Positions 60,501-62,503 of a stretch of 64,000 nt of DNA are shown in pieces (within the stretch, counting starts at the first letter, position 1; each line of letters begins with the position of its first letter). Below the pieces are notes generated by a model. The model was not told the DNA's origin. It saw only the letters and a program-made list of their open reading frames with translations, and ran no database searches. Source of the DNA: Prosthecobacter debontii (GTDB lineage: Bacteria; Verrucomicrobiota; Verrucomicrobiia; Verrucomicrobiales; Verrucomicrobiaceae); contig CAMBPS010000002.1 in assembly GCA_945869675.1 (NCBI GenBank), positions 1 to 64,000 on the forward strand, read 5' to 3'. The translations under genes and the position numbers were made by a program.

Positions 60501-61651
60501 TGCCGCTCCTTGGTCGTGTTGCTCGTGGCCGCGATGCGCGCACGCACCACGTAGTCGCCCGCTGGCCAGTCACCAGGGATGCGGAAGGGCTGATACGGAT
60601 TCGCGAACACATCCTCGATGGTCAGGAAGCTGCCCGTCTTCGCCGCCGGATGCGCCAGGTAAGCACGCTGCTGCGGCACGGAATGCACCCAGTTCCGCCG
60701 ACCCTGTTCGTCCGCATGCACCGCATCCGTGAAACCAAAGTCCACGGGTGAGGACGCGCCGGTGATCCTCTGCCACGCGAAGAAGAGATGCGTTGCATTA
60801 CCTTTCTTCTCCGCGCGGATCTGCGCGACGACATCTGCATTTTCAGGCCTCGCCGCCGCTGCATTCACCGCCGCCGTCCACTTCTCGTAGCGCTCATGCG
60901 CATCCGTGCGCTCCTTTAGCGACACCCCGATGCGAGCATTCCGCTCCTCCGCCTCCACATGCATCAAGCGCGACTTGGCGGCCGTCGGCACAATGAATCG
61001 TGCGAAGTGCTCATCCAGCGCCTGACGTCCGAGCGCGAGGTATTGCTCGAATTGATCCGATGACATGAAGAGCGACGATCCCACGGTATCAAAAGTGCCC
61101 GCGCCACCATCGGCAGGCAGTTCGTTCACCCGCAAGTCCACGCCGAGCAGATCGCGGATCGTGTTCTTGTATTCACGCCGGTTCAGTCGACGCATCGCGA
61201 TCTTGCCACCGCTGTCGCTCAGCACCGCTCGCGCCGTCACGAGCATGCGCGAGAGGTCATCAAGGAAATCCGTCTTCGCCGCCGCATCAGGCTGCTTTTC
61301 ATCCTCAGGCGGCATGTCGCCCGAGTTGATCGAGTTCAGCACCTTTTGCCACAGATCCGCCTTTTCGACCGTGTCCACGCTGAACGCGATGTCATCGAGC
61401 CGCACCTTCCCCTTCTGCTTCTCGGCGTTGTGACAGTTCAGGCAGTTGTCTTTGAAAAAGGCACGGTGTTTGGCGTCGAGTGTGGCTTGAGGCTGCTGGG
61501 CAACGGATGCGCAGGAAAGTAGGCCCAGGGCTATGAGGATGGCTTTTGGCTGGTAAAAGGCTTGGGGTAAAAGATTGGAGAATGGATTGAAACCTTTTAC
61601 CCCCAATCTTTTACCAGCCAGTTCAATGTGTATCATTTCGAGGCCGTTCAT
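57563..61651 (-). CDS. PSCyt1 + DUF1587/DUF1592/DUF1588/DUF1585 protein with three internal beta-sandwich-like repeats and repeat-encoded insertions
   Basis: [94 protein letters not shown]. First ATG free of the upstream GxxExxY ORF at 61651 (ATGA overlap). Confidence 0.9.
   Translation of the reverse strand: [1362 protein letters not shown]
58586..58646. repeat. Palindromic element copy A, inside DUF1592 CDS
   Basis: Left arm ATCTTTTACCCCCAACCTTTTACCA (58586..58610), right arm TGGTAAAAGATTCGGGGTAAAAGAT (58622..58646): 25-bp inverted repeat, 2 mismatches, 11-nt loop; each arm holds two GGTAAAAG-type units. Confidence 0.9.
61551..61616. repeat. Palindromic element copy B, at 5' end of DUF1592 CDS / 3' side of GxxExxY gene
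   Basis: TGGTAAAAGGCTTGGGGTAAAAGATT (61551..61576) ... AACCTTTTACCCCCAATCTTTTACCA (61591..61616). Confidence 0.9.
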
Positions 61652-62433
61652 GAGAGAGTGGTGAAGCGAATCGAGGTTTGGGTGATATTGATCCACTGAA
61701 TCGCCTTGAGATTTGTATGTCGGAGCAGCCGGATGGCCTGACGCTCAAAGTCATCAAGCCTGTCCTGCAAAGCTGTCACTTTGAAAGCGACTCCTGGTGC
61801 GACGAGGCGCATGCGCTGATCCGCCAAATGACCTTTGGGGCCAATCACCGGCACTGGCACAAGCACCTTTTCGTCTCCTCCGAGGAAGTGGGTAATGGCC
61901 TCTTCGTAGAGTCCCGTTTCCAGGTCCGCGCCCCAATCGGCGATCAGAGGCATGAGAATATCGCGGAGAGCTTCCGCGCCAGCGGACTGAAGACTCCATC
62001 TGGCATCGTCAATGTGTGGGTTTTTCAGATCGACGAGTCTCGCCGGGCAATTGACGAACTCATGCCCGACAGACTCAGGGCGCATGTTGATGACCTTGCC
62101 GTGTGCGAGGTCGAGAAGGAGCAGATAGTTGAGCGTTTGGCCACGATGACGGGGATGAATCGCGTCCGCAGCCTTGAACTCGAAGAGGCCACTGCTGTTG
62201 ATCAGCACATCCACATAGTAAGTCTTCGAGAAGGCACCGTGCGTGACGATGATTTCCAACTCCAGCACTACGCCGCTCATTCGATCAGCGAGTTCCTTCT
62301 TGTAAACGATCTCGTCAAAGAAGCGACCGAAGTCATTGTGGATGGCGAAGACATGATCCATGACCTCACTGGAAAGCAGCTTGAACCGCTCCTGCGAGAT
62401 GCGGTTTGTTGGAATCGGGCAGTGAATTGGCAT
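61648..62433 (-). CDS. GxxExxY protein (PDDEXK_3-like nuclease fold)
   Basis: MPIHCPIPTNRISQERFKLLSSEVMDHVFAIHNDFGRFFDEIVYKKELADRM; VTHGAFSKTYYVDVLINSSGLFEFKAADAIHPRHRGQTLNYLLLLDLAHGKVINMRPESVGHEFVN; D...ExK motif VDVLINSSGLFEFK. Confidence 0.85.
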   Translation of the reverse strand: MPIHCPIPTNRISQERFKLLSSEVMDHVFAIHNDFGRFFDEIVYKKELADRMSGVVLELEIIVTHGAFSKTYYVDVLINSSGLFEFKAADAIHPRHRGQTLNYLLLLDLAHGKVINMRPESVGHEFVNCPARLVDLKNPHIDDARWSLQSAGAEALRDILMPLIADWGADLETGLYEEAITHFLGGDEKVLVPVPVIGPKGHLADQRMRLVAPGVAFKVTALQDRLDDFERQAIRLLRHTNLKAIQWINITQTSIRFTTLS

Positions 62434-62446
62434 TAGCGATGAAGGC

Positions 62447-62503
62447 CGGTAAAAGGTTAGGGGTAAAAGATTCAGAGATCCGATTTCAAGCTTCTACCAA
62501 CAG
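62447..62503. repeat. Palindromic element copy C (3' arm degraded), 5' side of GxxExxY gene
   Basis: CGGTAAAAGGTTAGGGGTAAAAGATTCAGAGATCCGATTTCAAGCTTCTACCAACAG; left arm intact, right arm lacks about one GGTAAAAG unit. Confidence 0.8.

Follow-up and report, generated by a model that had tools for sequence, protein, structure and literature searches.

In the 64,000-nucleotide stretch of Prosthecobacter debontii DNA analysed here (the window), a GxxExxY gene bracketed by palindromes lies between a DUF1552 gene and a DUF1592-type gene. This arrangement raises the question of whether gene and palindromes belong together as one spreading unit, and, if so, which enzyme moves it. An earlier note, made from the letters alone, had suggested a self-spreading cassette, either homing-like or RAYT/REP-like. 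The contig is part of a 4.04-Mb assembly that is 93% complete and congeneric with several Verrucomicrobiaceae MAGs. Along the minus strand, DUF1552 is followed by palindrome D, palindrome C, GxxExxY, palindrome B and the DUF1592-type gene, and palindrome A is internal to the last of these. The features are as follows.

62677..63951, minus strand: DUF1552 gene, upstream of the proposed unit
62597..62668: palindrome D, intact (arms 62597-62624 and 62641-62668)
62445..62502: palindrome C, left end of the proposed unit (inner arm 62445-62472 intact, outer arm decayed)
62418..62639: 152-bp tandem duplication (62418-62487 versus 62570-62639, 84%)
61648..62433, minus strand: GxxExxY gene, 261 amino acids, long (two-domain) form, with profile matches to TIGR04256 and PF13366
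61547..61620: palindrome B, right end of the proposed unit (arms 61547-61576 and 61591-61620, 87% complementary)
58585..58647: palindrome A, lone, with reverse arm order, in frame in a linker of the DUF1592 protein
57563..61696, minus strand: DUF1592-type (PSD1-5/cytochrome c) gene, downstream of the proposed unit, open through palindrome B, true start uncertain

Profile matches establish the GxxExxY frame as genuine: it scores 50.5 bits for TIGR04256, where the cut-off is 35, and 51.3 bits for PF13366 (PDDEXK_3), where it is 22. Its neighbours are the DUF1552 and DUF1592-type genes. Palindrome B, which the earlier note had put about 30 bp past the stop codon, ends 27 bp beyond it. Palindrome C, described there as close to the start, does have an intact arm that begins about 12-14 bp ahead of the start codon, but its outer arm has decayed and folding has been lost along with it (DNA folding z against shuffles of +1.5, compared with -7.2 for B, -6.8 for D and -6.4 for A). 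Each palindrome arm consists of two direct units of ~13 bp, GGTAAAAGATTGG-GGGTAAAAGATT. The presence of two left palindromes, C and D, is explained by the 152-bp tandem duplication, which covers a palindrome together with the start of the GxxExxY gene, the copy of that start having decayed. The sequence GGGGTAAAAG has seven exact copies, where 1.9 would be expected even with one mismatch allowed (0/100 shuffles). Across the 4.04-Mb genome the double repeat occurs seven times, always at the GxxExxY locus (0 for a reversed-pattern control), a confinement that rules out the idea of a genome-wide REP in this genome. A role as terminators was likewise rejected, since no terminator-like site was found at the window palindromes. 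Two paralogous DUF1552 genes (56242-57528 and 62677-63951), about 75% identical in DNA, flank the DUF1592 gene and the proposed unit.

The window protein is a member of the GxxExxY family (TIGR04256) and of PDDEXK_3 (PF13366), and the long form to which it belongs differs by a second domain copy that is predicted to be catalytically dead. Its GxxExxY-type motif reads GRFFDExxY, and the D...ExK motif noticed earlier is retained as D75...E85-F-K87, the active-site motif, invariant in 64 relatives. Residues E41, Q99 and Y103 are also found in 64/64 homologs, and G36 and Y44 in 63; the six fully invariant residues belong to the N-terminal PD-(D/E)XK-like domain. Together with a dN/dS of about 0.03-0.14, these invariant residues point to a working nuclease site under strong purifying selection. 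An AlphaFold model (pLDDT 95.4, pTM 0.89) contains the topology H-H-E-E-E-H-E-E twice in succession. The E-F-K of the first half corresponds to A-F-K in the second, where no acidic residue is conserved at the equivalent position, and a single active site per chain would be expected. On this model the 261-residue protein appears to be a pseudo-dimeric, PD-(D/E)XK-like predicted nuclease. The reading as an internal duplication is drawn mainly from the repeated topology of the model: profile alignment with 15 sequences did not detect it, and a profile comparison of the two halves with 64 sequences was in register and weak (P 0.002). The nearest solved folds are Cas4/ACE1 nucleases (4ic1, 4r5q, 9iab), at whole-chain TM-scores of 0.21-0.30, low as expected for a two-domain query, and a sequence search for solved relatives returned nothing meaningful. 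Pfam and NCBIfam scans of the unit returned PDDEXK_3 and GxxExxY alone, with no Y1 domain. Identity as a defence or phage gene was rejected, as there was no PADLOC or PHROGs match.

If gene and palindromes form a unit, the association should extend beyond this locus. Long GxxExxY relatives were gathered from 69 genomes of the family and from GTDB contigs. For each, a flank score was taken from the strongest local alignment of the 160 bases on its upstream side to the 160 bases on its downstream side, and a score of at least 30 counted as a pass. Matching flanks on both sides were found for 61 of 64 distinct long genes, compared with 4/186 neighbouring ORFs. The median score was 56.5 for a gene's own flanks and 18 for swapped pairs, and 0/10,000 permutations reached the observed mean. 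Repeat types vary among these relatives and include GGTAAAAGATTGG, GGCAAAAAGATG, GACAGAAAGATTGG, GGCAGTAGAATGG, GACAGCAGAATGG, GGCAAGAAGATTG, GGCAGAATGATGA, GGCAAAGGAAT and others; two of the palindrome-flanked long genes are on contigs labelled Planctomycetaceae and Pirellulaceae. Divergence of the repeats tracks divergence of the proteins (Spearman 0.40, 0/2000 permutations, with pairs that share an insertion site included). The suspicion that GxxExxY genes and palindromes are associated beyond chance is thus borne out for the TIGR04256 family. The repeat is lineage-specific, though, and GGTAAAAG as the general partner is ruled out, each lineage having its own.

Palindromes also occur away from GxxExxY genes. 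The GACAGCAG palindrome has 38 copies in 48 genomes, 31 of them in the three genomes with the cognate gene, and this concentration persists after copies beside the gene are dropped (p 1.4e-5). The GGTAAAAG type is present in 22/69 genomes; its link to the cognate gene is weak (p 0.03) because the type is abundant in G042, which has 23 copies and no cognate gene. Some copies lie within coding sequence. Palindrome A adds a linker to the DUF1592 protein in five genomes, including G042, itself without the unit, and the gap in the protein with palindrome A is 24 codons, compared with 17 or 7 in relatives without palindrome A. Palindrome B appears from the sequence to be translated into the DUF1592 signal-peptide region in the genomes G000, G052, G056 and G046. 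The in-frame readings in the DUF1592 gene are AGKRLGVK... for palindrome A and ...NLLP... for palindrome B. Separately, a palindrome with 150-220 bp of flank is recurrently duplicated in tandem (window 62418-62639; locus L122; loci L053, L055 and L064), with repeat lengths of 152 bp in the window, 172 bp (x3), 195 bp (x1.8) and 219 bp (x2.7). Such duplications of palindrome plus flank may have been left behind by the insertion mechanism.

The earlier note had named empty sites as a check on mobility, and unit-free DUF1552/DUF1592 junctions are indeed present in relatives. Compared across the genus, this junction carries a GGTAAAAG unit in G000, G052, G056, G046 and G040, and is empty in G042, G038, G048 and G058, where ~18 bases separate the two genes; G060 likewise lacks the unit. 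In G033 the junction has half a GGTAAAAG palindrome and no GxxExxY gene; in G032 it is taken by the full unit of another GxxExxY lineage, complete with that lineage's repeat; and G053, G054, G028 and G059 have foreign repeats there that stand alone. A further repeat type, GGAGTGATGGAGTCATGGAGT, is present there without a gene in G028 and G059 (L211 and L212), and we therefore regard the junction as a repeated target of different lineages. A second junction shows a comparable range of states. G042, G034 and G049 carry units of one lineage there, and G050 and G033 carry those of a related one; in G035 and G048 deletion has left relics with one end kept; and the junction is empty, with stop and start codons touching or nearly so, in G038, G021, G043, G032, G057, G056 and G053. 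The relics in G035 and G048 (L176 and L178) are overlaid by another repeat, GTAGGGCGGCTTGTCC...AAGCCGCC.

Units at different junctions can be closely similar. Those of G053 and G052 are 86.7% identical over 1012 bp, and the similarity runs from the outer edge of one palindrome to ~25 bases beyond the other, at the next start codon. The genome studied here has an empty version of the G052 junction. The G053 and G052 units share one sulfatase gene cluster, so that local transposition and recombination between palindromes could both account for the pair. Among close relatives (at least 80% identity), most are at the same junction. The empty sites are too diverged to define the joint or a target-site duplication, and the tree of the DUF1552 neighbours is too weakly resolved for counts of gain and loss.

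Synonymous divergence bears on the age of the insertion. At the window site the unit has roughly the divergence of DUF1552 or more, and a unit no younger than its flanks either entered before these species split or travelled together with the whole block. By this measure the window insertion is an old one, passed down since then together with the genes beside it. The comparison speaks against recent homing into the window junction, and recent spread at this locus finds no support in it; a unit as diverged as its flank also leaves room for a benefit to the host.

We consider it probable that the GxxExxY gene and the palindromes on both sides of it are one nuclease-encoding mobile unit, with lone palindromes as its satellites. 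The self-spreading part of the original suggestion is supported, beyond what was first put forward, by the family-wide association, the co-variation of repeat and protein, and the empty, lone and foreign states of the junctions. Mobility is here inferred from comparison, and nuclease catalysis is predicted. The unit would be about 0.9-1.1 kb long and end in palindromes of a lineage-specific repeat, in the window with two GGTAAAAGATTGG units per palindrome arm. The GxxExxY protein, as the sole gene product, would recognise its own repeat and nick or cut its own palindrome as DNA, perhaps as an extruded hairpin, and the unit would then be copied by repair or replication into a new, nearby gene junction. 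The clearest pairs at different junctions share one gene neighbourhood, and local recombination between palindromes could be an alternative for these. Lone palindromes are best read as non-autonomous copies or relics.

Several other explanations share part of this evidence. Site-faithful homing, in which the nuclease cuts an empty junction and the unit is copied by allelic recombination, with the palindromes as by-products or resolution sites, seems unlikely. PD-(D/E)XK homing endonucleases exist, the nuclease is strongly conserved, and the same junction is patchily occupied in related species, with most close relatives at the same site. Homing predicts units more alike than their flanks, however, which is contradicted by the synonymous divergence given above; related proteins also use unrelated junctions, and lone palindromes are found elsewhere, even within genes. 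A regulatory role at the RNA level, with the hairpins as transcript elements (processing sites or insulators) acted on by an operon-embedded, self-controlling, domesticated nuclease, would suit an old, retained insertion with low dN/dS, units placed between co-directional genes, translation through palindromes A and B, and nearest folds that act on nucleic acid. It is nevertheless improbable, in that it leaves the empty sites, the lone copies in unrelated places and the foreign units at the same junction unexplained, and no terminator-like site accompanies the palindromes.

The palindromes might instead be REP- or MITE-like elements moved by some other enzyme, such as a Y1 RAYT, with the GxxExxY gene caught between copies. 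Flanking of 61/64 genes by repeats matched to their own lineage would be hard to obtain in this way, and the GACAGCAG palindrome follows its GxxExxY gene. We consider such a passenger gene very improbable, even though Y1_Tnp genes occur in 8/8 genomes tested and lone palindromes outnumber genes in G042. The genome studied here has three weak Y1 matches only, those on the window contig lying >20 kb away, and RAYT-driven movement is rejected as the main reading, the matches being this weak and distant. The sole Y1-like match in the window is a weak two-part match to Y1_Tnp at 34644-35132, in a 396-residue frame.

The preferred reading, a mobile unit with its own nuclease, resembles several known systems in part. 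In REPtrons and TIRtrons the gene of a tyrosine transposase, RAYT or TIRYT, stands between REPs or long TIRs (PMC3733652). They are similar in that a small nuclease gene is bracketed by lineage-specific palindromes or inverted repeats, in that lone repeats are dispersed and some lie within genes, and in that clusters are reiterated with flanking DNA (PMC3733652). The REPtron enzyme is a Y1 (HUH) transposase, whereas that of the GxxExxY unit is PD-(D/E)XK-like and unrelated by descent, and the arms of two tandem ~13-bp units are also unlike those of REPtrons. REPs are defined by a GTAG or CGTC tag at the foot of the palindrome (PMC3733652). By eye, neither tag is present at the feet of the window palindromes, GCTGGTAAAAG...CTTTTACCAGC, or was seen in the arms. 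With an unrelated enzyme and no such tags, the GxxExxY unit is not a member of the REPtrons, and the RAYT/REP-like identity proposed for it at the outset is set aside. Rickettsia palindromic elements (RPE), about 150 bp long, occur in protein genes as in-frame insertions that are translated (PMC10969869). Palindromes A and B are like RPE in being in frame and translated, and differ from them in that GxxExxY palindromes are about 65-75 bp long and have a matching gene.

As homing endonucleases such as I-Ssp6803I illustrate, the PD-(D/E)XK fold is able to drive spread. The GxxExxY unit is similar to these in nuclease superfamily and in having a nuclease as the sole enzyme of a spreading unit; it differs in that its gene is outside any intron or intein and is flanked by palindromes, with no sign of homing at the window junction. 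We found no link between GxxExxY and flanking repeats in the open-access literature, where papers that name GxxExxY do so in other contexts, paywalled work and preprints being outside the search. Gene and flanking repeats have the look of a single mobile DNA unit of an undescribed kind. Annotated GxxExxY proteins are common, and their constant bracketing by repeats matched to the lineage suggests a role that can be tested. If PD-(D/E)XK chemistry drives the movement, a further enzyme fold would be added to the mobilisers of palindromic elements, and the family would provide naturally paired proteins and target sequences in which specificity could be studied.

Short one-domain GxxExxY genes show the same pattern with simpler inverted arrays (CACAGAG, CACGGAA, GGATTAACA and GGCGCAAAG). 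Within the family, 30 of 35 such genes score above the 95th percentile of swapped pairs; across the phylum 23/30 score at least 30, as opposed to 4% of swapped pairs (0/10,000 permutations). Matching flanks at that score were also found for six of eight plasmid-borne GxxExxY genes, the six being from Gemmatimonadota, Bacteroidota, Pseudomonadota and Fusobacteriota; the two without are a Treponema gene and one Bacteroidota gene. We tentatively put forward a broader proposal, to which we give somewhat less than an even chance: in many bacterial phyla, GxxExxY proteins may each serve as the only enzyme of a mobile element, the elements together forming a widespread class. Each protein would recognise palindromic tandem-repeat ends of its own, use PD-(D/E)XK chemistry to move itself and lone palindromes to gene junctions, and thereby give rise to much of the short inverted tandem-repeat litter of the CACAGAG, CACGGAA, GGATTAACA and GGCGCAAAG types in these genomes. 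A large class of unexplained short repeats would in this way be tied to an enzyme.

Two individual loci may be recorded here. On a Sphingomonas plasmid (L287), a short GxxExxY gene with its repeats is located between fabD and fabG. On contig 44 of the genome studied here, a frame of ~280 residues (L038) contains two tandem short-type GxxExxY domains and is flanked by near-identical palindromes of 70-80 bp of the ACACCGCAGAG type; it is another two-domain GxxExxY protein, outside the long clade.
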